Source of the DNA: Candidatus Pacearchaeota archaeon
GTDB taxonomy: Archaea; Nanoarchaeota; Nanoarchaeia; Pacearchaeales; GW2011-AR1
NCBI GenBank assembly: GCA_002690445.1
Contig: NZER01000413.1
Coordinates: 1 to 28,647, forward strand
Direction: 5' to 3'
DNA length: 28,647 nt
Shown piece after piece: positions 1,314 through 17,624 of the stretch. Within the stretch, counting starts at the first letter, position 1, and each line of letters begins with the position of its first letter. Made by a program: the position numbers and the translations under genes. The notes beneath the pieces were generated by a model. The model had not been told where the DNA came from, did not search any database, and saw only the letters and a program-made list of their open reading frames with translations.

Positions 1314-1574
1314 TCATCCTCGTCCAGTTAGTCCCAAGATAAGTCCAACTACTATACCGCATAGAGTAATGCTACCGCCAATTATTTTCCATTGTAGCTT
1401 GATAGAGTTTCGGTTCACAGCGCAGCCTCTCAGAGCTTCGGCAATCCCATCATTTTGCTTCTCCTGATGCTTTTTTATTTCTGGTATATCGCCCTCATCA
1501 TCCTTATCCCCATAGAGACGTTTGAACTTTTCATCCAATCTAATTAAAAGCTCATCCCTATCTGTTTGTCTCAC
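1314..1574 (-). CDS. holin-like small membrane protein (XhlA-like layout)
   Basis: This 86-residue protein has an N-terminal charged, probably coiled-coil region (RLDEKFKRLYGD, then IPEIKKHQEKQNDGI) and one C-terminal transmembrane helix at about residues 62-83 (QWKIIGGSITLCGIVVGLIL). That layout matches XhlA-like phage holin or lysis proteins. The GTG start overlaps the stop of the upstream tail gene (GTGA) and is preceded by GGAGGTGGAG. The next gene is the MOA-like protease, which supports a lysis cassette. A purely structural membrane-anchored role remains possible. Confidence 0.6.
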   Translation of the reverse strand: MRQTDRDELLIRLDEKFKRLYGDKDDEGDIPEIKKHQEKQNDGIAEALRGCAVNRNSIKLQWKIIGGSITLCGIVVGLILGLTGRG

Positions 1575-3922
1575 GACAGCTCCACCTCCTGCATAACCAA
1601 GTTGAATCGTCTTTCTGGCTTGGTTGGGGCAGTCTCATTCTTGGTATATTCCCAAAGAGGGCTTGTGGGTAAGAGCCGAACATTTATGGTCGCCCCATCA
1701 GGGTCATAGAACTCCGTAGGGTAGGTCAGGTCAGCACTGGCTTCCTCAAGGACTGTTTTAATAGTGGCACTCTCATCTAATTGTTGCCCCAGTTTATCTC
1801 GGACATTATCACCTGCCACAACCGTACATTTAATTATCCTTCTTCTTGTAGTATAGAGGACGGCATGGCAGTTATAGTCTAATAGTATGGGGGTTTTAGT
1901 GGCATCGTCAGTGAAGGCGTTAATCTTAAATCGTACCATCTCCCTGGCAGGTTTGTTGCTAATATCAATAAACGCTGAAGGCTGGCGGTCTGTCGAGGTG
2001 CCCTTGAAATTCCCCACATCTACCCAAGTGCCTGTTTTCCACAACTCGTAATCAACATTGAAATAAATATCTGCGTCATAACTATGCCCTAACTTCAGGA
2101 ATAACTGGATAAATGCCTTCGTATCATCCCGATAACCGAAGTGCAACCAAGGAGTAATAACATAGGGGCGAGTAGAAGTGTCAAAGTCTCTATTAGTGTC
2201 GTTGGCTATATCGCCATAAGCATCCGGCAACGGGATATAGTAAAGGCTATCGGTGGAGTCGGTAGAAGCTATCCAGAGTCTTCTCTGATAGACATTGGAT
2301 ACCCACGCTGTCTCACAACCATCCAATGTTATCTCTTGGGTAGGATGCCATACCCATTGAGTTGTGCCGTCAATACTCTCGAACCTACCTGCTAATACTT
2401 CTACTTTGGTCCCATTATCTACAACAGCAAACAACCATCTCTCATCTCCAGTTACCGCAAACACCTGCCCGTCAAAGTCTGCAAGGTTGGTAATCCAATC
2501 TGATGGGTCTTTCCAATTGTAGGTAGCATTGGCAACATTATACTCTAGTAGAGCCTGCGTCCCATAGGGCATATAGAAATAACCTAACCAATGGAAAGAG
2601 TTCTTGCCTCCCGTAGTGCTGGTCATGTGCTCGGTTATATTAGTTAGCACCTTTACATTGCCAGTGGTATCAAGATAAAATGGTCTGTCTTCCTTTAGGA
2701 TATAGAATACGCTATTGACTGACCTCAGTCCTGTAATAGCATTATAGGTAGCATCAACTGTCGTCTGTGTCGACCAAGCTGTGCCCCCATTGAGAGGGTT
2801 AACTGTAGACCTTAGGGTATTCGTCCCATCATTACCATACATAGTAGGGGCAGTTGCGTCTAGAAGCTCAAAGTGTTCGTACTGTTTATCTGTAGCTGTA
2901 CTTTCAGTAAAGGCCTCTGCTTCTGTCATATACCAGTAGTTTTGTGATGTGCCGAAAGCTATGAATAAATAGTCTGCCCCACCAACCTGCATTTGCTTGA
3001 GGGAGGTGATACTGTGAAGAAAAGCCCCCCTGATAGTGATAGCCCCCGCTGAACTCATAGCCAATAGAATACTGCCACGTGAGAAATACATCTCATCACT
3101 AAAGTCCTGTCGTACTTTTATAACCCCAGAAGCGGGTATCTGGCAGTCATCTACATAAGCTACCTTGTTTGCGCCAGGGGTATTGGCATATACACCTACC
3201 CGTATTCTTGTAGCAGAAGAATCTAACTGCCTGGTGCAGGTTAGAAGCTCATAAGAACCCCCGCCTGTATGAGCAGTACCATTAGTCTCCCCCACACCAT
3301 CGTTTATACGCACTTTCCACATATTAGCATCAGTAGCCTTGACATAGAACCCAACCGTCCATGTAGTAGACCTGAAGGCATTACTCCAATTAGCCAGGTC
3401 TTGATAGATACCAGTAGATTCGCTGGTCCCTTCTGTGTTTAGGGCAGCGGAATAAGTCCCAGACCTTTCATTCGCTGAGTCCTGAGTCACACCGTTGGTA
3501 GTCCCTGGCTCAACCTGTGTCCAATTGGTAGGGGTGGTGCCATCATCCCAAGCCTCAAAGCCAGCATCATTCACAGTGGGCGTTGTCGGTAAAGTAGCCG
3601 CTGAGGGTTTATAGCTCTGTATAGCCATACCCCGATGCCTCATATCCATACCGTAAGAAGAGTTATATCTTTTAGGGTCATTTTCATCATAGACTTCAAG
3701 TCCAAACCCGGAACGCCAGTCGTGCTGTTCGGCTACCAGCTCTTTCCCATAGGGTAAAGCACCATAACCAGCTTCACTTACTTGCTGGCTGGCAAATGGC
3801 TCATCATCATCTACTTGATATAAATACTCGCCATCATTACCCCTGGCAAGCATCAGACCAACCTTAGTCGAGCCATCTGACCTTAATATCCCACAATCGT
3901 GATGTTCTTTATTATAAGGCAT
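1571..3922 (-). CDS. large beta-rich tail protein with carbohydrate-binding-module-like domain
   Basis: This 783-residue protein begins at an ATG that overlaps the stop of the 435-aa gene (TAATG). After a ~115-residue N-terminal part, residues about 118-262 look like a CBM4/9-type jelly roll: it starts NDAGFEAWDDGTTPTNW and ends with an RVGVYA...AYVDDCQI strand pattern. The rest is repetitive short beta-strand sequence with many Trp and aromatic residues (WLFAVVDNGTKVEVLAGRF, RLWIASTDSTDSLYYIPLP), reading like a beta-propeller. No enzyme motif is seen. Position between an adaptor-like protein and the lysis genes suggests a tail nozzle, hub or receptor-binding protein. The propeller and CBM calls are pattern-based. 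Confidence 0.65.
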   Translation of the reverse strand: MPYNKEHHDCGILRSDGSTKVGLMLARGNDGEYLYQVDDDEPFASQQVSEAGYGALPYGKELVAEQHDWRSGFGLEVYDENDPKRYNSSYGMDMRHRGMAIQSYKPSAATLPTTPTVNDAGFEAWDDGTTPTNWTQVEPGTTNGVTQDSANERSGTYSAALNTEGTSESTGIYQDLANWSNAFRSTTWTVGFYVKATDANMWKVRINDGVGETNGTAHTGGGSYELLTCTRQLDSSATRIRVGVYANTPGANKVAYVDDCQIPASGVIKVRQDFSDEMYFSRGSILLAMSSAGAITIRGAFLHSITSLKQMQVGGADYLFIAFGTSQNYWYMTEAEAFTESTATDKQYEHFELLDATAPTMYGNDGTNTLRSTVNPLNGGTAWSTQTTVDATYNAITGLRSVNSVFYILKEDRPFYLDTTGNVKVLTNITEHMTSTTGGKNSFHWLGYFYMPYGTQALLEYNVANATYNWKDPSDWITNLADFDGQVFAVTGDERWLFAVVDNGTKVEVLAGRFESIDGTTQWVWHPTQEITLDGCETAWVSNVYQRRLWIASTDSTDSLYYIPLPDAYGDIANDTNRDFDTSTRPYVITPWLHFGYRDDTKAFIQLFLKLGHSYDADIYFNVDYELWKTGTWVDVGNFKGTSTDRQPSAFIDISNKPAREMVRFKINAFTDDATKTPILLDYNCHAVLYTTRRRIIKCTVVAGDNVRDKLGQQLDESATIKTVLEEASADLTYPTEFYDPDGATINVRLLPTSPLWEYTKNETAPTKPERRFNLVMQEVELS

Positions 3923-5229
3923 TATATGTTAATCACCCTCATAGTTTGTCTCTCGGCCGGCATCCCCATTTTACTTAATAAGGCCTTATATTTACTAAAC
4001 CAATAGGCGGATAAGTTGATAAACTGGCCTCTGTCTTCGCCAGAAGCTCCCCCAATACCCCTTTCATACAAAAGATAAGCCGTATAAGCCAGAAGCAGGT
4101 TTAACTTATGACCATCAAGGCTGATAGTATCCGTTGCAGCACTTAAAGACTCCAATGGCTTGGAACCGATTAGTCTTATTTTCCTTTCATTGCTGGTTAG
4201 GTCGGGTATCCAAAGATAGTTATATGTTCCATCATTGATAATCCGCCTAGTGTGAAGCGGTGCCCAATCTCTGGGCAGAATATCATCACAAATCTCATCT
4301 GAATATCCTAGCGTCTGGATGTCAACCGTATCAACATTCCCATCTTGAAAGTCCTCCGGCAACAGATACTCTCGAACAGTTGTGCCAATCAATCTAGGTG
4401 CATCGAAGTAGACAAACTTAGTATGAGTAGCTACATTCAATCGTATCTCTACTGTTTCCAAGTCATCGTTAAGAACTTGGTTTTTTAATTCAAGCAGAGT
4501 CCACCTATTAGCAGGACAAGCAGTGGTAGAGGTTAATGTCTGTGTTGTCCCATCAGATTGCACAGTATGGATTATGATAGACGCATTATTGGTAACTTCT
4601 GGCTGCGCCCAACACTGTAGGGTCATTGTCTGGTTCATTATATCTAACAGGCGAGGGTAATCATCAGAACTAATATAAAGATAATCATCCGCCCCATCGG
4701 CTACTACTCTAGCTGAGGCTTGTGCGTTTCGGGTTAATCCGGCAGTGGTCGTTTTAGTAATACCTCCGCTATTCTCCGTGTAGATACGCAATGCAGTGGA
4801 AGATGAGAAATTAAACGGGGGTAGAATATTACCAGTGATTAACTGCATATCGTCTAATGGAACACGCAGACTAGGGTAAAGTTCACGCAAAGCATCGTTA
4901 ATGGCATCCTCCCTACTTTGATATTGGTGCCGACTCAATCTAAAATTAGCCAGATTAGAGCTATCGCTACTGAAGTTATCACCAAGAACAGTCAATGTAT
5001 TCGTGCCGTCATCATCGCTAACATATCTATCCTCATTAGCGTTGGCTTGGTCTTCAATGTAAACCCACCATCTATTGAAGTAATCAGCCGTTGAACGATG
5101 CCTCTGTAGATTAGTGGAAACGACACTCTTGTTTGTAGTCAGGGCCGTTGTAACAGCGTGACGATATTTCCACTCACCTAATAGCGTGAGTAATCTTTCA
5201 TCTGCTACTAATAAGGTTGTAGTGCCCAT
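3922..5229 (-). CDS. head-tail adaptor/tail structural protein with CBM-like insert
   Basis: This 435-residue protein starts at the ATG at 5229, six bases after a GGGAGG site that lies inside the preceding radical SAM gene (32-base overlap). Residues 105-121 (SREDAINDALRELYPSL) and the helical C-terminal part (KLNLLLAYTAYLLYERG, then LSAYWFSKYKALLSKMG) resemble connector or tail-tube-A type adaptor proteins of short-tailed phages. About residues 142-282 look like an inserted carbohydrate-binding-module-like jelly roll ending in FVYFDAPRL. It is the first virion gene after the metabolic cassette. Structural role is likely; the exact position in the particle is inference. Confidence 0.6.
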   Translation of the reverse strand: MGTTTLLVADERLLTLLGEWKYRHAVTTALTTNKSVVSTNLQRHRSTADYFNRWWVYIEDQANANEDRYVSDDDGTNTLTVLGDNFSSDSSNLANFRLSRHQYQSREDAINDALRELYPSLRVPLDDMQLITGNILPPFNFSSSTALRIYTENSGGITKTTTAGLTRNAQASARVVADGADDYLYISSDDYPRLLDIMNQTMTLQCWAQPEVTNNASIIIHTVQSDGTTQTLTSTTACPANRWTLLELKNQVLNDDLETVEIRLNVATHTKFVYFDAPRLIGTTVREYLLPEDFQDGNVDTVDIQTLGYSDEICDDILPRDWAPLHTRRIINDGTYNYLWIPDLTSNERKIRLIGSKPLESLSAATDTISLDGHKLNLLLAYTAYLLYERGIGGASGEDRGQFINLSAYWFSKYKALLSKMGMPAERQTMRVINI

Positions 5230-6418
5230 CTTGAACCTCCCTTGGATTCCATCCCAGCATTTCTTTTATATGTTCTGTACCCATTATACCAAATTGCGTT
5301 TCTATCATACGAAGATACTGCCCATCGGAGAAGTATTCCCTAAACGCTTGGTCTCTAAACCTCACCACTTCTGGTTCAGCGCATATATTATCAGCGAATT
5401 GGTCGTAGCTTGACCAATCAGTGGGCTTATCTTTTAGGGAATCACACCACTCTGACCCTGGATAGGGTAAGGCAACATAAAAATTAACATACTCACACTG
5501 AAGCTCACTAGCTAATTGTTTCGTATTTCCCATATCTTCCATAGTTTCTTCTGGTAGCCCGAACATAAAATTGCCCATGACATTTATCCCTGCCTCACGA
5601 GTCATCTCTCTCGCCTTGAAAGGGTCAGTCGCATACTTATCTAAGCTAGAAGCCTCAAACCCGTAAGCTAACCAATTAAACCCAGCCCGCTTCATCTTCT
5701 CTAAGAGTTCGGGGGTTACAGTATCCACCCTAGCATAAGCCCAAATGTTAAGATTGTAATCCCTTTCAATTAACAAATCGCAGATTCGCCCCACATGGTG
5801 GTGGTTTAGCACGAATAACTCATCACAAACCTTTAGATTTTGAACTGAGTGCGTCTCAACAAGGGTCTCCACCTCGGCTATAACATCTTCGGGTTTCCGA
5901 TAAGCCACCTGTCTCCCACCATAGAGAGTATGAATATTGCAAAACAAACAATTATACGGGCATCCGAAGCTGGTATAGATAACTCCGTAATTCCCCCTGC
6001 TATTCAAGTCGTGAAGACAATGCCAGTTATGGGCACGATATTTAGAGAAGTCTACTAAGTCCCACCGGGGTGTTAACCTGCATAGCTCCGCCCGATGCAA
6101 CCGTAATCTTCTTTTGTCAGGGCGTGAGGCCTGTGGATGAAGCCCTGAGATATGATAGAACTTCAAAGAACTTGCCAGCTTCCCTATAACATTCATCTTA
6201 GGGGTAGAGGAAGCCGATGGATTAGCACCCATCGCCACGAGAACACAAGGCTCGTTCCCTATTCTGGAGACCGTTCCGTCCACTGTTAATGCCTCCGCCT
6301 CGGCATCAAGTATGGTTGTGTGTCCCGGATACTTTCTTGCCCAATAAGCGCACCATATCGGAGGCTCTACCGCTGACATCGGACTGGGGTTTCGGTTATT
6401 GGGGTTAACTATTATCAT
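5198..6418 (-). CDS. radical SAM enzyme with B12-type N-terminal domain
   Basis: This 406-residue enzyme carries the radical SAM cluster motif at Cys153, Cys157 and Cys160 (FGCPYNCLFC). About residues 1-110 match the Rossmann-like N-terminus of B12-binding radical SAM proteins, including the typical GANPSAS stretch, but no DxHxxG cobalamin-ligand motif is seen. B12 may therefore bind base-off without a protein histidine, or be lost. The core continues with IVASVETL-type and GFEASS / MFGLPEET motifs typical of the family. It would use a [4Fe-4S] cluster and S-adenosylmethionine; the substrate is unknown. It overlaps the cupin gene by 14 bases and the downstream tail gene by 32. The ATG follows AAGGGAGTCGG. 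It is the last gene of the metabolic cassette. Confidence 0.85.
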   Translation of the reverse strand: MIIVNPNNRNPSPMSAVEPPIWCAYWARKYPGHTTILDAEAEALTVDGTVSRIGNEPCVLVAMGANPSASSTPKMNVIGKLASSLKFYHISGLHPQASRPDKRRLRLHRAELCRLTPRWDLVDFSKYRAHNWHCLHDLNSRGNYGVIYTSFGCPYNCLFCNIHTLYGGRQVAYRKPEDVIAEVETLVETHSVQNLKVCDELFVLNHHHVGRICDLLIERDYNLNIWAYARVDTVTPELLEKMKRAGFNWLAYGFEASSLDKYATDPFKAREMTREAGINVMGNFMFGLPEETMEDMGNTKQLASELQCEYVNFYVALPYPGSEWCDSLKDKPTDWSSYDQFADNICAEPEVVRFRDQAFREYFSDGQYLRMIETQFGIMGTEHIKEMLGWNPREVQDGHYNLISSR

Positions 6419-6737
6419 CCGACTCCCTTAATCTGACTACATCTAAATCATCGTGGCAGGTAGACACCTCTAGTAAGACTGCATCCGTAACCCCCTCAAA
6501 GCTATGACAAAAGCCGACAGGGACAGTTATTGGCTCGCTACCCTTAACTAGCGGATACAGTCTCTCTTCAAACATCAAATCCACTACTCCCTCCAAACAG
6601 TAAAAGGTTTCCTTCTTTTCTTTATGGTAGTGGTAGGATGATATCATCCCCGCCTTTAGATACAGCAGTTTGCCACAATACTCATGGCAATTCACTATCC
6701 ACTCCTCTCTTCCCCATCTCTTTTCAACTATCTTCAT
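6405..6737 (-). CDS. cupin, sugar-phosphate isomerase/polysaccharide-biosynthesis type
   Basis: This 110-residue single-domain cupin has the metal-binding pattern His36-x-His38-x4-Glu43 (YHYHKEKKETFY) and a late His78 (VGFCHSF). The opening MKIVEKRWGREEWIV and the CGKLLYLKAG stretch resemble the C-terminal cupin of mannose-6-phosphate isomerase/GDP-mannose pyrophosphorylase-type proteins and small cupins found next to heptose kinase genes. A role in isomerising or binding a sugar phosphate is likely; the substrate is unknown. It overlaps the kinase by 14 bases and the next radical SAM gene by 14. The AGGTGA ribosome site is inside the kinase gene. Confidence 0.8.
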   Translation of the reverse strand: MKIVEKRWGREEWIVNCHEYCGKLLYLKAGMISSYHYHKEKKETFYCLEGVVDLMFEERLYPLVKGSEPITVPVGFCHSFEGVTDAVLLEVSTCHDDLDVVRLRESDDNS

Positions 6738-7527
6738 ATATCACCTGACTCCCACTTTTATCAAACTTAAAAGGAACATGTTTTAATTTCATGGCATCAC
6801 TTACTTCAGCCTGCTTTTTGGGTTCTACCACCAAAAGGATAACCCCACCACCACCAGCACCCAATAGTTTCCCGCCTATAGCTCCAGCCCTTAATGCCTT
6901 ATCGTAAATCTCATCAGTAAAGGGAGTGGTAACATCATCAGCCAGTTCTTTTTTTAATGCCCACGCCTCACCCATGGCCAACCCAAAATCCCTATAGCTC
7001 TTATAGTCTCGTATCGCCAGCATTTTCAGGCGATGTAGCACTTCTTGATTCTCATCTATTCTCGCTAATTGATGTTCCACCACTTCCCCTGCCTTTCTAT
7101 ATTGCCCTGTATCGAACAACATCAGATAAGGCTCTAGCCAACTGTAACCTACAGGCTCATCCACTATACCCGAAGCGTAGAACCTCAATCTATGAAAGCC
7201 ACCCACTGCGCATATATATTGGTCTTGATACCCCACATGGTCATCGAGTTTATCTCTCTCCCATATAGTTGCCAACCCAGCTATTTCCTCATTAGGTTTA
7301 TCCGTGCAAGCCTTCAGCAAACCAACGGTAAAAGCAGAACTAGTAGCCATCCCACTTCTTACTGGCAGGTCAGAGTGTGTCCACATCTGCCCCTTGCTCA
7401 CTCCTACATAACAATACTTATCTATGGAGGTGGCTAGAACTACCCCTCCATGCTCGTTAAAGTATTCAGGGTAATCAGTCCCTCCGCCAAGTAAACTTAC
7501 CCTCAATGGGGTTCTTGTGATAATCAA
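6724..7527 (-). CDS. GHMP-family sugar kinase, D-glycero-D-manno-heptose-7-phosphate kinase (HddA)-like, compact
   Basis: The three GHMP kinase motifs are present: RTPLRVSLLGGGTDYPEYF at the N-terminus, the ATP-phosphate loop SGMATSSAFTVGLL, and the C-terminal GGKLLGAGGGG. A YQDQY stretch is the expected catalytic-base region. This pattern matches HddA-like heptose-phosphate or fucokinase-like enzymes. At about 267 residues it is shorter than the roughly 330-340 usual for HddA, mainly between the first two motifs. A TTG at 7527 is preferred as start: it overlaps the upstream stop (TTGA), sits six bases after AGGAG, and gives the family-typical N-terminus M-IITRTPLR. A TTG at 7542 would add five residues. 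The substrate is inferred, not proven. Confidence 0.85.
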   Translation of the reverse strand: MIITRTPLRVSLLGGGTDYPEYFNEHGGVVLATSIDKYCYVGVSKGQMWTHSDLPVRSGMATSSAFTVGLLKACTDKPNEEIAGLATIWERDKLDDHVGYQDQYICAVGGFHRLRFYASGIVDEPVGYSWLEPYLMLFDTGQYRKAGEVVEHQLARIDENQEVLHRLKMLAIRDYKSYRDFGLAMGEAWALKKELADDVTTPFTDEIYDKALRAGAIGGKLLGAGGGGVILLVVEPKKQAEVSDAMKLKHVPFKFDKSGSQVIYEDS

Positions 7528-8579
7528 GGGAAACTCCTGCAAAGTCTATCCTCAACTACGCACTCAGAAATTTGCCGATTATATTCTGACCAAGTGCATC
7601 TGGCACATTCTTTCTGAGGGTTGATACCTTTAAGTAATTCTCTGTGCTTATCGCTACCCCACTCATCAAATTGAAACCTCTCCTCCATCCGGTGGTCAAC
7701 ACAAACATATTTCTGTTTATCAGTGCATATCTGGACTACAAGGGGAGAAGCCAAGCATTTATCGAAGTCGTGCTTAATGTGAAAACCCTCATCATATTTA
7801 TGGGTTACTGTATAAACATGGAAATCATCATCCTCTAAGTCATGTAGCCCCTCAAATATGCTTTCTATATTCGCTTTGTTAAAGTCAGCCCTGCTCCCTG
7901 CAAAATCCTTCCTTTCCAAATCCACTGGTCTAACATGAAAATCATCTACCCCTAGAACCTTGGCAAGCATCCCACAATTCACCAAATCACCTACATTCTC
8001 TGGTAACACCAAGGCCTTTAATGAGATGTCGCACTTCTTCCCACGGGAAGCCTTCGTGTCCACAAGCCTCTTAATGTTCTGCACCACAGTATTAAAATCA
8101 TCCCTACCCCTTATCCGCTTATATAATACAGGGGAAGACGCATCCAGTGATATTCCAATCCATCTACAGAGTAAGAGTTCATTTATATAATCCTCACCCA
8201 GCAGAGCACCATTAGTAATAATGGCGCACTCCATACCCTTACTTATTCCATAGGCTGTCATCCCTCTTATGTTTTCGTTTAACAATGCCTCACCACCACC
8301 ACCCCAACAGAACGCCTTTACGCCCCAATCAGCCAGATAATCTAGTGTGTCCTTGATATATTCTCTGCTCCATTTCATCTTGGCAGGCAGGTATCTCTGA
8401 GAGTTACAGTAATAACAATTCTGATTACAAGCACTTATCGGGTCTAGCGAAGCCTCGATAGGAGGAGGTAACTCGCCATTCCCATCTAACCAAGTCACTA
8501 TCTTCTTATAGTGCTCATAGTAAGTTAGCCCTTTATATGAATTAAAACTGTTGTATTTGTTGCACTCAGCCCATTCCAT
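7524..8579 (-). CDS. radical SAM enzyme with SPASM-like Cys-rich C-terminus
   Basis: This 351-residue enzyme has the radical SAM motif Cys51-x3-Cys55-x2-Cys58 (ACNQNCYYCN) and a GGE-like segment (WGGGGEALLN) that binds the methionyl amine in this family. The C-terminus holds seven cysteines (275, 285, 293, 325, 328, 340, 347), as in SPASM or twitch domains that carry auxiliary Fe-S clusters. It belongs to the MoaA/PqqE-like branch, whose members include peptide-modifying and dehydrogenase enzymes such as the DOI dehydrogenase BtrN. A redox step on a sugar or polyol would fit the neighbours, but the substrate is not readable from sequence. The start overlaps E1-beta by 14 bases and has no clear ribosome site of its own. 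Confidence 0.82.
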   Translation of the reverse strand: MEWAECNKYNSFNSYKGLTYYEHYKKIVTWLDGNGELPPPIEASLDPISACNQNCYYCNSQRYLPAKMKWSREYIKDTLDYLADWGVKAFCWGGGGEALLNENIRGMTAYGISKGMECAIITNGALLGEDYINELLLCRWIGISLDASSPVLYKRIRGRDDFNTVVQNIKRLVDTKASRGKKCDISLKALVLPENVGDLVNCGMLAKVLGVDDFHVRPVDLERKDFAGSRADFNKANIESIFEGLHDLEDDDFHVYTVTHKYDEGFHIKHDFDKCLASPLVVQICTDKQKYVCVDHRMEERFQFDEWGSDKHRELLKGINPQKECARCTWSEYNRQISECVVEDRLCRSFP

Positions 8580-9180
8580 ACATATCAGCCATTTCTATTA
8601 TCAAGGTGCTTTTATCACTGCGCAAAGCCTTTCGGTATTCAGGTATAATATCTTTACTCCCGCATAACTTGACCACATTTACATTCTGCAAGATGGTTCT
8701 CATTGCTGCTGTATAGTCTTGGCAGTGTTGTACACCTGGATAAAGAGGGTCCTTGCTTCCCACCACAGTCCTGACAATAACTTTAGGATTAAACTCCCCG
8801 TTAGTCATCTCCTCGCATTTGTCGAGATGATTTACCAATTGGTTAAAAGCTAGAAGCAAGAAGTCAAACCTAGGGAAGATACTTATCGGGATATAACCCA
8901 TAAGGCTCAACCCGATGGACACACCCATTTGCATTTCCTCTGCAACGGGGAATTCTATAATCTTACCTTTGGGCACATTCTGCATCGTGCCATAGACCGC
9001 ATTCCCCGAATAAAGAACTGATTGCCCCAAGAAGATAGTTCTCTTATCCTGCGCTAACAAAGCCATAGCTTGGGTTAAGCATTCTTTATAGTTCAAGATT
9101 GGCTCGCTTTTCTTGCCTATAATGTAACTCCCATGTCTCACTAGCCCCCGCATGCAAGGCCTTCCATTAACATATGGCAT
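8566..9180 (-). CDS. thiamine-diphosphate enzyme, E1-beta (pyrimidine-binding) subunit, short form
   Basis: This 204-residue protein matches the pyrimidine-binding domain of 2-oxoacid dehydrogenase E1-beta or split-transketolase subunits. FPVAEEMQMGVSIGLSLMGY contains the ThDP-activating glutamate (Glu81 or Glu82), and PGVQHCQDYTAAM matches the family's G..HSQ histidine region (His152). The C-terminal transketolase domain of full E1-beta (about 325 aa) is missing. It should pair with the E1-alpha-like protein encoded just upstream to form one ThDP site at their interface. The ATG at 9180 has only a modest AGAGAG site. A second ATG sits at residue 10. A run of ten Cs on the coding strand lies just before the gene. 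Confidence 0.82.
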   Translation of the reverse strand: MPYVNGRPCMRGLVRHGSYIIGKKSEPILNYKECLTQAMALLAQDKRTIFLGQSVLYSGNAVYGTMQNVPKGKIIEFPVAEEMQMGVSIGLSLMGYIPISIFPRFDFLLLAFNQLVNHLDKCEEMTNGEFNPKVIVRTVVGSKDPLYPGVQHCQDYTAAMRTILQNVNVVKLCGSKDIIPEYRKALRSDKSTLIIEMADMYGMG

Positions 9181-9364
9181 CTTCCGCTCTCTGCACCAGT
9201 TAGGGGGGGGGGCATATTACCGGCGGTAAAACCTGTGAACCTGTTAACACCCCTCAAAAACACACTCAAAAAAGGTTAACAACCTCGTTAACACCTGTTA
9301 ACGGTATTACCCTAGATGAACTGGCAGAGGCCAAGCGTCTATAGTTAGGTAAATATATCGAGTT
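9181..9364 (-). promoter_or_regulatory. 184-base gap between E1-alpha and E1-beta with palindromes, hairpins and a C10 tract
   Basis: Four perfect GTTAAC palindromes lie at 9243, 9275, 9287 and 9297, with a degenerate GTGAAC at 9235. The last two form the 18-base palindrome CGTTAACACCTGTTAACG (9286-9303). TTACCGGCGGTAA (9217-9229) is another inverted repeat, and TATTACC occurs twice. On the coding strand AGGTTGTTAACCTTTTTT can form a small hairpin with a T tail that competes with the larger palindrome. Every other junction in this cassette downstream overlaps, so the gap stands out. It may be an operator array, an attenuator or both. No clear -35/-10 pair is seen. Confidence 0.55.
9203..9212. 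repeat. run of ten Gs (C10 on the coding strand)
   Basis: A homopolymer of ten Gs on the plus strand sits 22 bases upstream of the E1-beta ATG. On the coding strand an ATG directly precedes it. With one more C that ATG would be in frame with E1-beta and add a 12-residue N-terminal extension; with one fewer it would stop at once (TAA). This is either slipped-strand variation or a sequencing/assembly uncertainty. Confidence 0.85.
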
Positions 9365-9943
9365 TTAGAAAGTCACGAAGACTCCCGACCCAACATGGGG
9401 GTAGGTTCTCTCGTAATTATATCGGATAACGTTCTCTTTATCATGCCCTCCCCATACTTCCTGAGTCGGTGTATTAACACTCAACCCGTTATCTTCAATA
9501 ACAAAGGTGATTGGTAAATTATTTCGCCTGGCATACTTATGGCACTCATGGAATATCCCTGTCTCAGCACCCATATCCCCGACAAAACACCATACCCTAG
9601 CCCCTGCCATAGCTACTCCCAGTGCAATCGGCAAGCATCCTCCAACTATGGCAGAGGTGAAGAACTTATACTTTGCATTATTCAGGTTAATACTGTGGTT
9701 ATTCAGGATTTCCTTCTTAATCCATTCTGGCGGTATGCCTTTCAATAGGGCATGAAAATGACTACGATGTGTTGAGAATATCCAGTCGTCTTCTTTCACA
9801 TTTTGAAATATCTCAATCAACCGTTCCTCATTCCCTCCGCACAAATGCACAGGAGAACGTAGATTGCCAACCTCAAATAATTCTTTTATCTCCTGTTCAA
9901 ATTGACGCAGTGCCCGTATAATTGTTTCACTCTTACGATACAT
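9365..9943 (-). CDS. thiamine-diphosphate enzyme, E1-alpha (pyrophosphate-binding) subunit, short form
   Basis: This 192-residue protein has the diphosphate/Mg-binding motif of E1-alpha subunits: VGDMGAETGIFHE (Gly122-Asp123, with Met where Gly is usual) through to EDNGLSVNTP (Asn152). FSTHRSHFHALLKG (57-70) matches the SxHRxH loop of pyruvate and branched-chain E1-alpha. Full-length E1-alpha is about 320-360 aa, so this is a minimal domain, but both ends look natural (EQEIKELFEVG start, YERTYPHVGSG end). Its partner E1-beta follows after the regulatory gap. The ATG has no ribosome site of its own; a 14-codon ORF with a good site ends eight bases inside it. Likely reaction: 2-oxoacid decarboxylation or two-carbon transfer. 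Confidence 0.82.
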   Translation of the reverse strand: MYRKSETIIRALRQFEQEIKELFEVGNLRSPVHLCGGNEERLIEIFQNVKEDDWIFSTHRSHFHALLKGIPPEWIKKEILNNHSINLNNAKYKFFTSAIVGGCLPIALGVAMAGARVWCFVGDMGAETGIFHECHKYARRNNLPITFVIEDNGLSVNTPTQEVWGGHDKENVIRYNYERTYPHVGSGVFVTF

Positions 9944-9977
9944 AAATATCAGCCATAGTGGCAGAGAATAAAGTCAT
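9933..9977 (-). CDS. 14-aa leader-like ORF, possible E1-beta 3'-end remnant
   Basis: It has a strong ribosome site (AGGAGGCAGTAG before the ATG) and encodes MTLFSATMADIYVS. Its stop overlaps the first codons of E1-alpha, so it could feed ribosomes to that gene. The ending TL..MADIY resembles the E1-beta C-terminus TLIIEMADMY, and the DNA matches at 15 of 16 bases (9941-9956 versus 8577-8592). In both places the match ends with the start codon of the next gene. Confidence 0.4.
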   Translation of the reverse strand: MTLFSATMADIYVS

Positions 9978-9994
9978 CTACTGCCTCCTACTCC

Positions 9995-10267
9995 TTATGT
10001 TTCCCGCACAGAGCCGTCATCTTCTTCTTGTAGGTCAAGACGGTCTTCCCTTTGCCTTTGAGTCTCTTGTAACCAGTTCTCCGGTAATTCCCCCGTACAA
10101 CCAATATTTTGAGTTATTTTCTCCGTATCGTGGAACTCTATTTCTCGCCATATGTAGAAGTCATCATCAGGGAACACAACGACAAATTGGATTAAGCCCG
10201 GATGTGGCTTGCGTATCTCCCATGTACACCTTGTCCCGCTCCTTTTACTTCTTGGGCTAACTTCCAT
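9995..10267 (-). CDS. 90-aa acidic protein, unknown
   Basis: A short protein with a basic N-terminus (MEVSPRSKRSGTRCTWEIRK), a central beta-like stretch (LIQFVVVFPDDDFYIWREIEF) and an acidic, glutamine-rich tail (QREDRLDLQEEDDGS). The ATG overlaps the stop of the upstream structural gene (TAATG) and follows CAGGAGGTATA, so translation is well supported. No family is recognised. It is the last gene before the metabolic cassette, separated from E1-alpha by about 50 bases. Confidence 0.65.
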   Translation of the reverse strand: MEVSPRSKRSGTRCTWEIRKPHPGLIQFVVVFPDDDFYIWREIEFHDTEKITQNIGCTGELPENWLQETQRQREDRLDLQEEDDGSVRET

Positions 10268-10896
10268 TATACCTCCTGTGCGAAGATGTCTACTGTTCCG
10301 TCTTGAAATACTGCCGCTAAATCGGTCAAAGACCCACCATCTACTACCGCATAAATCCGCACTTTATCCGTTGCACCTGCACCGGGAGCAGATATTTCTT
10401 TCATTTCAAGAAACCCAGAAGTACCTTCTATAATTATAGTCCCAGTTGAGTTTACTCGTACACAATCAACGAAATCACCAACAGCATCGGCTCCGGAAGC
10501 ATTAGAAGCATAAGTAATACGGAATTGGTCACTTTCTTGCCAAAGGGCAAATGTAGCATTATTACTTGCTCTCTTGAATAAGACACCACCGAAAGCATCA
10601 CCACTCGGTTGTTTTATATCTATTGGGGAACGAGGAGTGATGTTCGCCCCAAGCCCCTTACCGCTGGCAAGAATCCAATCATGTGACCAAGATGCCGCAT
10701 CTTCACTCTCATCCCAAAGTAATTTAGGCGACCCAGTTACATCAATCGTTATTAGGTCAGTATCTGTATCCGAGCCTGGTTTATAGTCTATTCCGCTAGT
10801 TGTTTTGATAGTAACGGAACCACGAAATATAGAGTTGGTGAACACACGTTCCCCATTCACCAACACCAAGGGAAGAGAACCATCGTTAAAAGTCAT
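10267..10896 (-). CDS. probable virion structural (tail/fibre-like) protein
   Basis: This 209-residue protein is rich in short beta strands, Gly, Asp, Ser and Thr. The C-terminus ISAPGAGATDKVRIYAVVDG followed by LAAVFQDGTVDIFAQEV is a pattern I associate with phage fibre or capsid-surface proteins. There is no signal peptide, membrane segment or enzyme motif. The ATG overlaps the upstream 60-aa gene (ATGA). Structural role is inferred from composition and position among other small beta-rich late genes. Confidence 0.6.
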   Translation of the reverse strand: MTFNDGSLPLVLVNGERVFTNSIFRGSVTIKTTSGIDYKPGSDTDTDLITIDVTGSPKLLWDESEDAASWSHDWILASGKGLGANITPRSPIDIKQPSGDAFGGVLFKRASNNATFALWQESDQFRITYASNASGADAVGDFVDCVRVNSTGTIIIEGTSGFLEMKEISAPGAGATDKVRIYAVVDGGSLTDLAAVFQDGTVDIFAQEV

Positions 10897-12597: not shown

Positions 12598-13049
12598 TAT
12601 CCCTCACTCTTTAATGCCTGTGTTAATTCGTAAATCATTCCCTTTAATTCTAACACTTCGGTTCTCAATTCTTCCGTTTCTTTGCGCTGTGTCTCTTCTT
12701 CCTCTGCCCTCTCTTTCTTGGCATATTCCTCCCATTTCTTAACCCTCTCCTCCTTCTTGGCTATACACACAGTAACCTCTTCCTGGGTATCGTGCCACTT
12801 ATCACAACCTGCACAATAGGGCAAAGGGTCTTTAGGGGGGACAAGTGCCCACCCTTTATCTAAATTAGCATCTCTAGTCCCAGACCCTATTACATTCCCT
12901 TCCTTATCCTTTCTATGATATCCCCTCCAGCTAGGGATAGCCTCAATCTCTCTCCCGTCTGGTGTGTAATACATTGTGCGGGGTATCCCCCCTGTGCGAG
13001 AAAAGCCCTGCTTTTTAATATCCTTCTTTTCTTGAACTGTGAGACTCAT
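12597..13049 (-). CDS. 150-aa protein with zinc-binding motif and C-terminal coiled coil
   Basis: Residues 79-95 hold Cys-x2-Cys-x3-His-x8-Cys (YCAGCDKWHDTQEEVTVC), a plausible zinc site. From about residue 97 to the end the sequence is a long charged heptad-like helix (KWEEYAKKERAEEEETQRKE, then LRTEVLELKGMIYELTQALK), probably a coiled coil. The start overlaps the radical SAM gene (ATGA). The combination suggests an adaptor or multimerising protein; whether it partners the radical SAM protein encoded just upstream is unknown. Confidence 0.6.
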   Translation of the reverse strand: MSLTVQEKKDIKKQGFSRTGGIPRTMYYTPDGREIEAIPSWRGYHRKDKEGNVIGSGTRDANLDKGWALVPPKDPLPYCAGCDKWHDTQEEVTVCIAKKEERVKKWEEYAKKERAEEEETQRKETEELRTEVLELKGMIYELTQALKSEG

Positions 13050-14632
13050 ATACCCCCCTTTATATGTATTTTAATTTTTTTATGACAATGCTGGCAACCA
13101 GTTCCCAAATACAAAACTGGTGATTCCCTGCTCCATATCTCCCTATACATACTCTCCTCTCCGCAGAAAGTGCAAGTGGCAAATACTTGGTAGACATGCC
13201 GACCATTGCCCAGCAAAACCTTACCATTCCGCCTTTCCTCTATAACCTTTGTGGAATCTACCGATGTAGCCATCATCCAAGTTCCTTCCAATGTCATAAG
13301 GAAAGTCATCCACTTTGCGAACTGCTCATCAGACATTTCGGTCATATTATAAGTGACATCACCAATAGACTCGTAGTATCGCTCTTTATCTTGGATAATA
13401 CCCTTCTCTACACAATAATCGAATATTTTACAACCCGGATAAGGAGCCAGCATCGCCAAGAATATCAACGATTGCTGGCAATGCTGGGCAAAGAAATCCA
13501 GTGTCTCTAAAATGGTTTCTTCGGTCTCTACGGGGTCGCCGAATAAGAGGTTCCCTCCAAAACCCATCCCTACTTCTTTCGCCAATGCAATAGTTTCTAC
13601 GTATTGGGCTGGTCTTGTCTTTTTATTCATGCTCTGCAACACCTTTTGAGAGGCACTCTCCAATCCATAGGAAAAGAAATAACATCCAGCTTTCTTGGCT
13701 AATTCCAGAGTCTCTTTATCTAGTTTAGCATTAGGGTGGGTCTGAAACATCCAATCAAAATCCCATCCATATTCCTCCCTTTCCTCAATCAGTGCCACGC
13801 AGAACTCCCTCATCCGCTTCTTGTTAACAGCAAACAACTCATCCCCAATGATAAGAATATTGAACTTATATTTCCTGTAAAGTCTCCGTATCTCCTCCAT
13901 GATATTAGGGATAGAACGAGCACGATACTTCGGTCCGCCTTGATGGACACAGAATGAGCAGTTGAAAGGACACGACCTCGCTGTATTTATTGTCATCGGC
14001 CTAGGATGAGAACGGGAATACTTATATAGAACCCTAGTTGACAACGAGAATTCATTAAGCATCTCCTTAACCCCAAATGGTTCATAGTCAGGAAATGCCC
14101 TGTCATCTAAATCCCCATAGTCGTAATTCGTCTGATTAAATATCGCACCACTCTCGGTCCAGTAAGCCAGATTATCTATATCACCAGGGTGTTCCTCTTT
14201 TTCCAAAGTGTCCGCTAGTTTAACTATCGCCTCCTCTGCCTCACCCCAAATACAAAAGTCAGGTTTCAAAAGATTAAATACAAACTCTTTATCATTATTT
14301 ATAATCCCTCCCCCCATGACAATTGGTGCTTTGGTATATCGCCTGATAACCCCTATAGCATCTTTAATAAACGCATAATCGGTGCATAATCCCCCAAGCC
14401 CAATCAAATCAGGCTTCTCCTTTTCGAGTGTTTCGTGTATCCCATTAGCTATCATCACATAAGCGGACTTGTATCTGGTACTGTTATTAAGATTTAATCC
14501 AATCACTTCATGCCCTGCTTTCTTTAACGCAGATGCCAAGTAAGCTAACCCTGTAGGGAAATCACTCACTGACAAATAAGTAGCCGTGTGTCCCTTGTAA
14601 TGAAATGTCGGGACGAGAAGCAAGACCTTCAT
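13046..14632 (-). CDS. B12-domain-type radical SAM enzyme with C-terminal zinc ribbon
   Basis: This 528-residue enzyme has an N-terminal Rossmann-like domain of the B12-binding type (MKVLLLVPTF..., GLAYLASALKKAGHEV, IVMGGG), without a DxHxxG cobalamin ligand. The radical SAM motif is Cys221-x3-Cys225-x2-Cys228 (RSCPFNCSFC), followed by family landmarks DELFAVN, YGLESAS and NLLFGDPVET. The last ~45 residues add a zinc-ribbon-like Cys487-x2-Cys490 and Cys513-x2-Cys516, which may position a macromolecular or cofactor partner. It overlaps both neighbours by four bases (ATGA) and follows a GT2 glycosyltransferase and an unknown protein. It resembles radical SAM proteins of surface-polysaccharide loci; the reaction is unknown. 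Confidence 0.83.
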   Translation of the reverse strand: MKVLLLVPTFHYKGHTATYLSVSDFPTGLAYLASALKKAGHEVIGLNLNNSTRYKSAYVMIANGIHETLEKEKPDLIGLGGLCTDYAFIKDAIGVIRRYTKAPIVMGGGIINNDKEFVFNLLKPDFCIWGEAEEAIVKLADTLEKEEHPGDIDNLAYWTESGAIFNQTNYDYGDLDDRAFPDYEPFGVKEMLNEFSLSTRVLYKYSRSHPRPMTINTARSCPFNCSFCVHQGGPKYRARSIPNIMEEIRRLYRKYKFNILIIGDELFAVNKKRMREFCVALIEEREEYGWDFDWMFQTHPNAKLDKETLELAKKAGCYFFSYGLESASQKVLQSMNKKTRPAQYVETIALAKEVGMGFGGNLLFGDPVETEETILETLDFFAQHCQQSLIFLAMLAPYPGCKIFDYCVEKGIIQDKERYYESIGDVTYNMTEMSDEQFAKWMTFLMTLEGTWMMATSVDSTKVIEERRNGKVLLGNGRHVYQVFATCTFCGEESMYREIWSRESPVLYLGTGCQHCHKKIKIHIKGGI

Positions 14633-15015
14633 TTCCGCACCTTTTTATACCAAACGTAAGGCGTAAAATATTTCCAAGAGAATGTCTCAGTAGGCGACAC
14701 TTCCTTAAACATGCGAGCATTATCATATAACCACCATAAGGCATTCCAATAAACCCGCAATACAAATTGCATTATTTTTATCTGAATATAAGGTATTGGG
14801 AACTGAGCATATAAATCACTTCGATAACGCATGTCTCTACCAACCCTTTTGAAACCCATCGCCTTAATAGCTTGCATGATATGAGCCTCCCTGCGTATGA
14901 CACAATCCGAAATCCTATGAACAGAGAATCCGCCAATAGTATCATCGGCCTCAAGAATGCGAATATTGGTAATGAAGTCCACGCCATCAACTGTTTTGAT
15001 TGCTGTTTCTATCAC
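14629..15015 (-). CDS. 128-aa protein next to GT2, unknown (possible glycosyltransferase-related)
   Basis: A GTG start overlaps the GT2 stop (GTGA). The product has a basic, aromatic C-terminal half (IQIKIMQFVLRVYWNALWWL, then SWKYFTPYVWYKKVRK) that could lie on a membrane. IRILEADDTIGGFSVHRISD faintly resembles a glycosyltransferase core segment, but no complete domain is seen. Translational coupling to GT2 suggests they act together. Function is unassigned. Confidence 0.55.
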   Translation of the reverse strand: MIETAIKTVDGVDFITNIRILEADDTIGGFSVHRISDCVIRREAHIMQAIKAMGFKRVGRDMRYRSDLYAQFPIPYIQIKIMQFVLRVYWNALWWLYDNARMFKEVSPTETFSWKYFTPYVWYKKVRK

Positions 15016-15833
15016 GATGCCTCCTCCTGACTAGGCATATAATGGATTAGGTCTTCCACAGTAAGACCTCGATACTCTTTCTGGAAAAGTTCCCACAGCC
15101 CCCACCTTTTATAAAATATCTCCATATTCTCTGCGTTCAGTCTTTTCCCGTTAATGGAGGCATCTCCCCTAGTAGCTTTAGGCTGGTGATATCCTACACC
15201 ATACCCACAGAAATATAGTTCCCACCCTTTAGATTTTACCACAAAACAATTATCTATATCATCCACACCCTTGAATCCATTGAAAATGTCTTCATCCAGA
15301 TTACCCGCCACCGCTTGTTTTCTTAATAGTGCGAAAGCCCACTGAACAGCCTCAACCTCATAAATAGAAGTTAACCTATGACTTGGTAAATCCCGCCCAA
15401 TATCACACGGAAGGTATTTGAACATCCTTATCCCGGCACTTTCTATGAGACCATTGGGGAACAAACATTTCAATCCCACAACACCTACTCTGGGATTTTC
15501 CTTCATCAGTTCCAACGCACGAATTTCCCATGTAGGTTCTACACTCATGCTATTCATAACAGTAGCTACATAATCAGTACGGGCTTGTTCTAATCCTATG
15601 TTGAAAATCTGATTCCCCGATTTGTAGGGTACGTCGGAATGTATGTATGTAACATTACTGTGGATTCTCTGGAAGTCAGCCATCCAAAGGGGGGTTAAAT
15701 CTGTGGAATCATCAATGACAATGAGATGAAATGGCGAGACTGTATTGACATAGAGAATATCCAGACATTTCTCCAATAAGCCTAGCCTATTATGCGCAGG
15801 AACGATTATATCTAACTGATACTCCCCCGTCAT
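15012..15833 (-). CDS. family 2 glycosyltransferase with altered DxD motif
   Basis: The GT-A fold starts with QLDIIVPAHNRLGLLEKCLD and continues with LIVIDDSTD, then a WbbL/rhamnosyltransferase-like core (VGVVGLKCLFPNGLIESAGI) and a late acidic motif GVDDIDNCF. The usual metal-binding NxD/DxD at the end of the nucleotide-binding half reads VMNSMSVEP: the Asp is replaced by Met (residue 96). Activity may therefore be metal-independent, altered or lost. The ATG at 15833 is chosen because GGAAGGAGGGG lies just before it; a longer frame from 15887 would begin inside a strong hairpin. It would transfer a sugar to an unknown acceptor, possibly a virion protein or cell-surface glycan. Confidence 0.8.
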   Translation of the reverse strand: MTGEYQLDIIVPAHNRLGLLEKCLDILYVNTVSPFHLIVIDDSTDLTPLWMADFQRIHSNVTYIHSDVPYKSGNQIFNIGLEQARTDYVATVMNSMSVEPTWEIRALELMKENPRVGVVGLKCLFPNGLIESAGIRMFKYLPCDIGRDLPSHRLTSIYEVEAVQWAFALLRKQAVAGNLDEDIFNGFKGVDDIDNCFVVKSKGWELYFCGYGVGYHQPKATRGDASINGKRLNAENMEIFYKRWGLWELFQKEYRGLTVEDLIHYMPSQEEAS

Positions 15834-15852
15834 TCCACCCCTCCTTCCTATG

Positions 15853-15887
15853 ATGAGGGGGGAGCGAAAGGTCGCCTCCCCCCTCAT
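15853..15887 (-). terminator. very strong hairpin after the capsid genes
   Basis: TGAGGGGGGA (15854-15863) and TCCCCCCTCA (15877-15886) form a perfect ten-base-pair, G-C-rich stem, extendable by one pair. It lies between the decoration gene stop and the GT2 ribosome site. There is no T run after it on the transcribed strand, so it may be a weak terminator, an mRNA-stabilising 3' hairpin or a processing site rather than a classic intrinsic terminator. Confidence 0.6.
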
Positions 15888-15891
15888 ATGT

Positions 15892-16686
15892 TTACTCTAG
15901 TTTAAGATTAGTGAGGGCATACTCTGCACTAGCAGATACACCTGAAGTGCCTCCACCGATATACTGGCCAATGGTGTATTTACTTTTACCCACATCCGTA
16001 GAAGCGGTGTTGGAAATAGGTCCGACAGCACCAGCCACAGTAGTTGATGCTTTCACGGGTTGCCCAATGACAAGAGTAGTAGCATCAACAAAAACGGCAC
16101 ATTCGCCTGTTCTCTGCAACCACACATAGTCACTAGCAGCAGCCGAAGCCGCTGCAACACCAGCTATCGCATTGGTAAACACTGTGTTAGCCGTAGTCAG
16201 AATCACCTCATCGTATGGACTCTTTCTCAAGGCCACTCTAGTTGTCCCAGCCTCCAATGCTACCGCTAGTTTATCGTTGCCCGCAAGCGTTAGTGTAGTC
16301 GTAGACCCTGCGGCACAGGAGTTGTTGGACGCAATTTTATAGGTATGCCCAACACCTGTCCCTACACTAGAAGAAACAGTCAGGTAGCCGTCAGCGAACA
16401 CATCAGCTGCTAAAGCAGTACCAGCAATAGTAACCACTGGCTTCCTTGAGTTAATAGCGACACTACTGGACGGAACAACAGCAGCCTTGGCTAATGAGGT
16501 ATTGGCCTCCTCGCCTTTACCTTGATAGAGCTTGCCAGGCACCAGAGCCGTGCCGCCAGCACGAGCATACCTAAAAGTTCGCCCGTCTGGGAGTTCCATC
16601 GCATGCCCTAACTCATGGAGTTTAGTGCTCCCAACGACCTTTTCGTCCCCATAGTCTCCGTAAATTTTATTCGGGAATGAACCCAT
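15892..16686 (-). CDS. probable capsid decoration/head surface protein
   Basis: This 264-residue protein starts at the ATG at 16686, directly after an ideal ribosome site (AAGGAGGATAAA). An in-frame upstream start at 16716 would lie inside the capsid gene and is not preferred. The sequence is Ala/Gly/Thr/Val-rich with many short strands (LYQGKGEEANTSLAKAAVVP, VTIAGTALAADVFADGYLTV), typical of head decoration proteins that follow major capsid genes. No enzyme motif is present. Ends with the stop just before a strong hairpin, closing the capsid unit. Confidence 0.7.
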   Translation of the reverse strand: MGSFPNKIYGDYGDEKVVGSTKLHELGHAMELPDGRTFRYARAGGTALVPGKLYQGKGEEANTSLAKAAVVPSSSVAINSRKPVVTIAGTALAADVFADGYLTVSSSVGTGVGHTYKIASNNSCAAGSTTTLTLAGNDKLAVALEAGTTRVALRKSPYDEVILTTANTVFTNAIAGVAAASAAASDYVWLQRTGECAVFVDATTLVIGQPVKASTTVAGAVGPISNTASTDVGKSKYTIGQYIGGGTSGVSASAEYALTNLKLE

Positions 16687-16696
16687 TTTATCCTCC

Positions 16697-17599
16697 TTAC
16701 GCAGGCGTGGCAGCATCCATGTAAAGCTCGACTATCCAGCCCGGCAGATACTCACCAACTCCGTATTCTCCAACGATATTGAGTTCCCACCCTCGTAGGG
16801 ATGCATCCCTCTCAGGTTCGACCGACCACTCATTTGCAGTTGCTAGTATAATGCTTCCACCTACTCCAGTGGCAAACACCCCACCCTTCGCATCGTCACT
16901 GGCATCTATTGAAAGGTTACCATCTTCCATAATAGGCATACCGAACAACTTGCCAATTCCATAGTTACGAAGAATGTCATCCGTCACACTTCCGCCCATC
17001 GCCTGAACTTGACTTGAAGAGGCAGCGGTTCCCGGAGGAACCAATGGGGTTAAAACATCCACCAAGTCAAGCAAAGTGAATGGGTGATGAACACAGGCAT
17101 AAGGCATGGGGGCAGGTCCGCCATTCACAGGTTTATTACCTGCTAACAACGCCCTAGCTGCTGCCACAACACCCATAGACATAGTTGTGCCTGCGCCTCC
17201 TAGTGAATTAGTACCATCGTCAAGTTGCCCCAGCAGGTCTTGGTCACGCTTTTTTTCCATCGCAGAACCAAGTATCTTCCCTGCAGCAGCCTTAACATCT
17301 TCTTGGTCATCTCTGATTAGCTTGTCAGTCAGAATGATTTTAACACCAACCTCGGCAGGAGTTATCTGAACATTCGTGTCATCCATAGCCGAGGAAGCCG
17401 TCATATCAACACCTTCAGTCAAGCCAACAGCAGTGACTTCTCCCCAGTAAGGCACGTTTACTTTCTTACCGTCTCCTTTTTGCTTGGTGATTTTCCACGA
17501 CAGCCCAGCCATAATAGCTAAAAACTGCGAGGTAAACCGAGCTTCCTCGATAACCGTTGGGATAGTATCACCAAGTTCAGCAGTTGTGGTAATCGGCAT
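16697..17599 (-). CDS. major capsid protein (HK97-fold type)
   Basis: A 300-residue protein of the length and composition of compact HK97-fold capsid proteins. It shows the expected N-terminal part (MPITTTAELGDTIPTVIEEA), a beta-hinge-like stretch (VNVPYWGEVTAVGLTEGVDM), a long spine-helix region (KLIRDDQEDVKAAAGKILGS) and an A-domain with PMPYACVHHP and FGMPIMEDGNL segments. It sits between a scaffold-like gene and a decoration-type gene, the usual capsid order, and has a strong ribosome site (AGGAGGTAATCATAT). No protease domain is attached. Assignment is by pattern and gene order. Confidence 0.8.
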   Translation of the reverse strand: MPITTTAELGDTIPTVIEEARFTSQFLAIMAGLSWKITKQKGDGKKVNVPYWGEVTAVGLTEGVDMTASSAMDDTNVQITPAEVGVKIILTDKLIRDDQEDVKAAAGKILGSAMEKKRDQDLLGQLDDGTNSLGGAGTTMSMGVVAAARALLAGNKPVNGGPAPMPYACVHHPFTLLDLVDVLTPLVPPGTAASSSQVQAMGGSVTDDILRNYGIGKLFGMPIMEDGNLSIDASDDAKGGVFATGVGGSIILATANEWSVEPERDASLRGWELNIVGEYGVGEYLPGWIVELYMDAATPA

Positions 17600-17624
17600 A
17601 TATGATTACCTCCTATTTTATTTT

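Follow-up and report, generated by a model that had tools for sequence, protein, structure and literature searches.

Why would a tailed phage carry, among its late genes, enzymes of sugar, thiamine diphosphate (ThDP) and radical S-adenosylmethionine (SAM) chemistry, and where might their product be used? The question is raised by a 28,647-base stretch of DNA (the window), an IMG/VR virus record of the linear class that is probably a fragment of a tailed-phage genome. Six genes on its late (minus) strand encode E1-alpha, E1-beta, a radical SAM enzyme (rSAM1), an HddA-like kinase, a cupin and a second radical SAM enzyme (rSAM2). The earlier note, made from the sequence alone, described this set, and all six are indeed open reading frames (ORFs) on the minus strand with profile matches to the families it gave. 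Its count of six overlooked two genes in the same stretch, one for a family 2 glycosyltransferase (GT2; 15012-15887) and one for a third, B12-type radical SAM enzyme (rSAM3; 13046-14632). The reading of the set as a sugar pathway is well supported. We propose, with confidence that is about evenly balanced, that it is a cassette with which the phage tailors a nucleotide sugar of the heptose type, and that the capsid is the most likely site to which GT2 delivers the product; the donor, the acceptor and every reaction of the cassette are predicted. The genes concerned are as follows.

9365..9943, minus strand: E1-alpha-like ThDP subunit, 192 residues (Pfam E1_dh, 2.3e-13; phrog_34187, 6.5e-50)
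8566..9096, minus strand: E1-beta-like ThDP subunit (Transket_pyr, 8.3e-6; phrog_34187, 2.2e-36)
7524..8579, minus strand: rSAM1, radical SAM enzyme with conserved C-terminal cysteines (Radical_SAM, 3.6e-17; model nearest to DesII and BlsE)
6724..7527, minus strand: short HddA-like GHMP sugar kinase, 267 residues, start TTG at 7527 (HddA model, 2.8e-30)
6405..6737, minus strand: small cupin, sugar-isomerase-like (Lyx_isomer, 6.9e-6; Cupin_2, 3.6e-5, below cut-off)
5198..6418, minus strand: rSAM2, radical SAM enzyme (Radical_SAM, 3.8e-12; AprD4 is the nearest solved relative)
15012..15887, minus strand: GT2 glycosyltransferase, candidate transferase of the product sugar (Glycos_transf_2, 4.2e-11)
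15892..16716, minus strand: predicted capsid-decoration protein
16697..17599, minus strand: major head/capsid protein, MCP (phrog_267, 6.6e-8)

Linkage of the cassette to GT2 and the capsid genes

GT2 is conserved in related contigs, and the order MCP-decoration-GT2 is present in 9/9 contigs (eight plus the window) that have a close MCP relative and in which the stretch is visible. Virion glycosylation had been one of the targets suggested for the pathway, and it gains from this linkage of GT2 to capsid genes, which is the arrangement looked for in phage virion glycosylation; the glycan itself is predicted. rSAM1, rSAM2 and GT2 occur together in the window and in all seven contigs with strong rSAM1 relatives (42-69%). 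In four other GT2 contigs, one of 22 kb and three shorter, neither radical SAM enzyme is present. Of the eight with strong rSAM1, six have the MCP block: the cassette precedes MCP in G004, G006 and G008 and follows it in the window, G001 and G002. Hence the link between cassette and GT2 survived rearrangement, and it is mainly because the cassette remains within ~10 kb of GT2, despite changing place relative to MCP, that the capsid is preferred as the site of sugar use.

Some of the evidence weighs on the other side. The contigs with the cassette-GT2 link come from related phages, and E1 is accessory within the phage group. One contig (G003) has E1, kinase and cupin with no match to rSAM2 or GT2, and no rSAM1 match was found within the 20.8 kb of it that was searched, so that the E1-kinase-cupin part also exists elsewhere.

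Sugar genes of phages are commonly assigned a role at the host surface. Applied here, the cassette sugar would be destined for lipopolysaccharide, capsule or an S-layer glycan in late infection, for superinfection exclusion or a change of receptor, with GT2 acting on a lipid-linked or surface glycan. Such a role is consistent with the cellular homologue loci, which have genes for short-chain dehydrogenases/reductases (SDR), DegT aminotransferases and nucleoside triphosphate (NTP) transferases and, in 17/80, ABC-2 transporters, and with the cyanophages S-SM2 and P-TIM68, whose large sugar clusters include an E1 homologue and several glycosyltransferases, that of S-SM2 also containing a capsule-type gene. 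It is harder to reconcile with a GT2 gene directly beside the MCP and decoration genes in 9/9 contigs, and the 30 window products covered by the Pfam scan include no recognisable flippase, polymerase or transporter, the window being a fragment from which the early region is missing. We regard a host-surface role as unlikely, while a serious competitor.

The pathway had also been linked to nucleobase decoration, and phage glycosyltransferases can indeed modify DNA, as stated in PMC12619734. Among the same 30 products no dedicated base-hypermodification gene was recognised (the early region lying outside the fragment), and GT2 is tied to capsid genes, which leaves phage DNA as a very improbable destination of the sugar.

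The accessory genes (E1, kinase, cupin and a nucleotidyltransferase) vary among the phage relatives. A bolder form of the capsid proposal, to which we give well below an even chance, is that the radical SAM and ThDP chemistry of cellular nucleotide-heptose-type loci has been turned into a swappable phage cassette, which would place an uncommon or undescribed heptose-type sugar, deoxy or branched, on the capsid via GT2; as the accessory genes differ between relatives, each phage may then show a different capsid sugar. If the capsid proposal is correct, certain phages produce the sugar of their own virions by radical SAM and ThDP chemistry joined to a capsid-linked glycosyltransferase.

One of the related contigs, G001 (66 kb; L162-L165), has two MCP genes far apart, which match that of the window at 30% and 76%, and the first has its own head and tail genes. 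G001 may represent two joined phages, a composite phage or an assembly chimera.

Predicted chemistry of the cassette proteins

In the proposed pathway the kinase and the cupin would act on a host-derived sugar or sugar phosphate, rSAM1 and rSAM2 would make a radical change on the sugar (in the manner of a dehydration/deoxygenation, a deamination or a decarboxylation), the E1 pair in its shortened form would transfer or remove a small carbon unit with ThDP and so yield a branched or chain-altered sugar, and GT2 would attach the product, most likely at the capsid surface. Alignments show that family-conserved residues are kept in the cassette proteins. The overlaps reported earlier from E1-beta onward, of 14, 4, 14, 14 and 32 bases, are confirmed in the sequence when the kinase is taken to start at TTG 7527, where its homologues begin.

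The kinase contains both the N- and C-terminal GHMP domains (PF00288, 3.5e-7; PF08544, 2.4e-10) and has profile matches to 3k85 (2.4e-56) and 4n3o (1.7e-50). It fails the NCBIfam equivalog cut-off for HddA (105.9 versus 600 bits), as does the cellular relative at L071 (144.7 bits). By alignment, it is missing a segment of ~40 residues that longer relatives contain, a shortening shared with the relatives in L046, L048, L049 and L052. The cupin matches phrog_7851 at 3.3e-22, the label of which is cysteine dioxygenase.

E1-alpha matches the E1-alpha of pyruvate dehydrogenase (PDH) at 3.9e-15 (with a family profile), and the score of E1-beta against Transket_pyr is 26 bits, just below the cut-off of 27. 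The E1-type ThDP residues to which catalytic roles are assigned are retained relative to PDH E1 alpha and beta (the R of the HR loop, GD...N, the beta Glu and the His), with two variants in E1-alpha, GDM in place of GDG and EDN in place of ENN. The E1-beta ORF is open from ATG 9180 and homologues start near TTG 9096, which probably makes it a protein of 176 residues starting at TTG 9096. It stops after the pyrimidine-binding domain and is without the C-terminal domain of a true E1-beta, its family match to 1ni4_B spanning chain residues 8-189 of 341. No lipoyl E2 or E3 partner was found among the 30 Pfam-scanned products of the fragment. With the pair shortened and no lipoyl partner in view, an ordinary dehydrogenase cycle would not be possible, and carboligation or simple decarboxylation appears the more likely chemistry.

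The two E1 genes are not coupled by overlap, with 184 bases between the ORFs, or 268 if E1-beta starts at TTG 9096.

9097..9364, minus strand: gap between the E1 genes, apparently non-coding, with a run of ~10 C and several GTTAAC words

In most relatives the E1 genes overlap or adjoin, and the gaps of L009, L040, L052 and L060 are filled by other ORFs, that of L052 by one of 158 residues that has no convincing counterpart in the window. With regard to an RNA element or intron in the E1 gap, no Rfam match was obtained at the gathering score in the window, L004, L009, L040 or L060. Because the 405-position model of phrog_34187 spans both halves and the gap holds the run of C, a single fused E1 gene broken by a frameshift was considered; it was rejected as the main view, as E1-alpha and E1-beta are normally encoded separately in the IMG/VR loci, and among the loci compared they are fused only in the two cyanophages. 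At the other end of E1-alpha, a 34-base repeat (91% identity, opposite orientation) occupies window positions 650-683 (plus) and 9902-9935 (minus); it is the end of a small ORF, 369-692, with a weak helix-turn-helix match, which recurs at the 5' end of E1-alpha and accounts for the unusual N-terminal sequence of that protein, SETIIRALRQ. The start of E1-alpha is also overlapped by a 14-codon ORF that has a ribosome-binding-like site.

The predicted model of rSAM1 has the same overall fold as DesII and BlsE at 15-18% identity, a fold that dictates neither substrate nor reaction, and the protein is below the cut-offs for both (26.5 versus 450 bits for DesII; 32.8 versus 400 bits for BlsE). DesII is described as a deaminase of the thymidine diphosphate (TDP)-desosamine pathway, and the database record of BlsE is named cytosylglucuronate decarboxylase. 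Alternatively, rSAM1 could be a viperin-like nucleotide enzyme of defence or counter-defence, as suggested by matches to PADLOC pVip (1.5e-16) and NCBIfam viperin (1.1e-13). The latter reaches 51.1 bits, below the cut-off of 180, and we think a viperin-like function highly unlikely.

rSAM2 matches the AprD4 chain 6fd2 at 4.3e-25 (with a family profile) and is far under the NCBIfam cut-off for AprD4 (55.6 versus 500 bits); no B12-binding domain was matched in it. AprD4, a radical SAM diol-dehydratase of apramycin biosynthesis, is reported to have the pseudodisaccharide paromamine as its substrate. The window differs from that system in that no AprD3-like reductase was recognised among the scanned products. 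Both radical SAM enzymes might instead be protein-modifying maturases acting on a virion or host peptide, with the sugar genes as separate cargo, which we consider improbable: by model, DesII and BlsE score higher for rSAM1, and rSAM2 accompanies sugar genes in cells.

The third radical SAM gene lies between the cassette and GT2.

13046..14632, minus strand: rSAM3, B12-binding radical SAM enzyme (Radical_SAM, 6.2e-20; B12-binding, 2.1e-12)

It matches a BchE-type model at 1.3e-38, below cut-off, and has close relatives in G001 and G002 (67-69%) and, in two pieces, in G004 (51-56%). Separately, two database proteins (P0019 and P0082) carry the same N-terminal Nudix domain fused to different rSAM1 sequences; these fusions are possibly real, which would point to a nucleotide-linked substrate, or possibly chimeric.

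Homologous loci in cells and viruses

The gene set is not unique to this phage. A search for the gene order in other loci, which the earlier note had recommended, shows that the E1 pair recurs, often with the kinase and rSAM2, in phage, bacterial and archaeal loci. E1-beta recruited 40 IMG/VR loci, in which E1-alpha and E1-beta are separate genes wherever both are present; at thresholds of at least 100 bits and counting the longest non-overlapping ORFs, rSAM2 is found in 31, the kinase in 23 and E1-alpha, kinase and rSAM2 together in 20 (19, 13 and 11, respectively, of 26 after dereplication). The cellular loci are the best 80 of 168 confirmed E1-beta relatives from one scan of genome contigs. 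They contain E1-alpha in 72, the kinase within 10 kb in 58, rSAM2 within 10 kb and at 150 bits or more in 45 (51 at E <= 1e-5) and all three in 34; among the 43 loci that reach 18 kb the three are together in 23. Organisms with the set of E1, AprD4-like and HddA-like genes include Nitrospira, Verrucomicrobia, SAR11 and uncultured archaea (Pacearchaeota, Methanophagales), a spread which suggests that cells, too, have a pathway not yet described.

In each of twelve whole genomes the kinase had a single match at E <= 1e-30, which lay at the E1 locus in 11/12 (elsewhere in the genome of L070), and the strongest rSAM2 match was at the E1 locus in 12/12, with weaker extra matches in four. As these genomes were chosen from loci already showing rSAM2 (12/12) and the kinase (11/12), the result shows single strong copies and not the frequency of linkage.

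Clustering of the cellular neighbours, each cluster being named from one representative, gave an SDR in 59 of the 80 loci, a DegT aminotransferase in 53, an NTP transferase in 44 and a second SDR in 41, followed by RmlC (19), ABC-2 transporter (17), SIS (13) and HAD (7) clusters. Representatives match GmhA (3.5e-49, below cut-off), HddC (2.7e-48, below cut-off) and GmhB (3.2e-58; 196 bits, above the cut-off of 178), and in the phage locus L019 a nucleotidyltransferase-like protein has RfaE domain II as its match (5.9e-18, below cut-off). GmhA-, GmhB-, HddC- and RfaE domain II-type functions are steps of the nucleotide-heptose route, and the label heptose type rests on these neighbours. One SDR representative resembles GDP-fucose synthase (1.8e-117, below cut-off), an enzyme outside the heptose route. 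The suggestion that a sugar pathway of heptose character lies in a phage late operon thus holds, with the kinase in 58/80 and rSAM2 in 45/80 cellular loci and with GmhA-, GmhB- and HddC-like neighbours. Ordinary central metabolism, which had been named as what might overturn that suggestion, is not where the cellular homologues sit; they are among nucleotide-sugar genes.

Close proximity of the E1 pair, rSAM2 and kinase families is what many cellular nucleotide-sugar loci share with the window, whereas they differ from it in a full-length kinase, an rSAM2 of ~500 residues and GmhA-, GmhB-, HddC-like, SDR and DegT genes that were not recognised in the window. Strong rSAM1 relatives near an E1 pair and rSAM2 occur in only two of the 80 cellular loci (L068 and L070, from uncultured archaea and full-length), which may point to the host range of the phage group or to a source of its genes. 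A quick maximum-likelihood tree with 99 E1 rows (65 from cells and 34 from viruses, out of 110 with both genes before dereplication) requires nine changes between virus and cell, at least five of them forced by starred branches, indicating repeated transfer of the genes between viral and cellular genomes. The starred set that includes the window has 16 rows, among them five other viruses, eight archaeal rows, one from Chloroflexi and one from a further bacterium. In seven SAR11 loci (L078, L080, L088, L089, L091, L093 and L108) a second E1-like gene of ~280 residues lies beside the short pair, several with a Transket_pyr partner of ~305 residues, perhaps a split transketolase.

Glycosylation of virions is already known, as are phage sugar clusters that include an E1 homologue. 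Relatives of E1-alpha are present in eight annotated phage records (two each under four organism names), including the sugar clusters of S-SM2 and P-TIM68. The E1 homologue of these two phages matches E1-alpha at 41-44%, a further product is 39% similar to the cupin, and their clusters are annotated with a carbohydrate kinase, a nucleotidyltransferase, a phosphoheptose isomerase, an epimerase and a glycosyltransferase. Unlike the phage analysed here, they are large T4-like phages with the E1 halves fused into one protein of ~400 residues, and in 30 kb of each no relative of rSAM1, rSAM2 or the GHMP kinase was detected and no MCP-decoration-GT2 block was seen. One of the two Acinetobacter phage records provides a different context, a locus for acetoin dehydrogenase that includes an E2 gene. 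A blastn search with the gene set against phage records gave no match.

Freeman et al., in 2023, reportedly treated the virion glycosylation of mycobacteriophages. Glycans on mycobacteriophage capsid proteins and phage-encoded glycosyltransferases are cited in passages of PMC12619734 and PMC11256854 that mention no radical SAM/ThDP sugar-making set. Glycosylated virions are reported for some actinobacteriophages. In a survey of viruses of methane-cycling archaea, a huge virus has 15 radical SAM enzymes and O-antigen-type genes are in the set, and the passages of PMC9723712 mention no such cassette in the huge virus. A literature search that covered little subscription content found no description of this gene set.

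Phage setting of the late operon and minor features

The minus strand carries nearly all large ORFs of the window. On the two sides of the cassette and GT2 lie the following genes.

25915..27414, minus strand: TerL, terminase large subunit (PHROGs phrog_5989, 3.1e-10)
3922..5229, minus strand: p3922, conserved late gene downstream of the six-gene set (homologues in G001, G005, G006 and G008)
1571..3922, minus strand: p1571, conserved late gene (homologues in G001, G005, G006, G007 and G008)

The description of the set as lying between phage structural genes stands for the upstream side, with MCP, TerL and the small terminase subunit TerS (PHROGs, 1.3e-4); on the downstream side, the family-profile scans of the window products gave no convincing match for p3922 and none for p1571, which are probably virion proteins as judged solely by conserved order in related contigs. 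The capsid reading of the decoration protein is based on a second look with VIA-align, a few viral models and gene order; a Foldseek search of the PDB gave no match at E <= 0.001.

An assembly chimera was considered and ruled out. GC is even along the window (0.41-0.51 per kilobase), and the flanks of both sides recur together in independent contigs: G006 holds TerL, cassette, MCP, GT2, p3922 and p1571 on one contig, and G008 likewise without TerL and E1. The skew is one-signed through the late operon. In the region 4800-18600, promoter-like sites (32, versus 26.1 with a standard deviation of 5.3 in shuffles) and terminator-like sites (5, versus 10.0) gave no signal. No tRNA was found in the window, and the terminase used as a lineage probe with single-sequence patterns gave no match. 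At the end of the late operon, positions 837-1313 encode a small protein with a weak Agglutinin_C match (2e-4, below cut-off), which is possibly a lysis protein, although that role is a guess.

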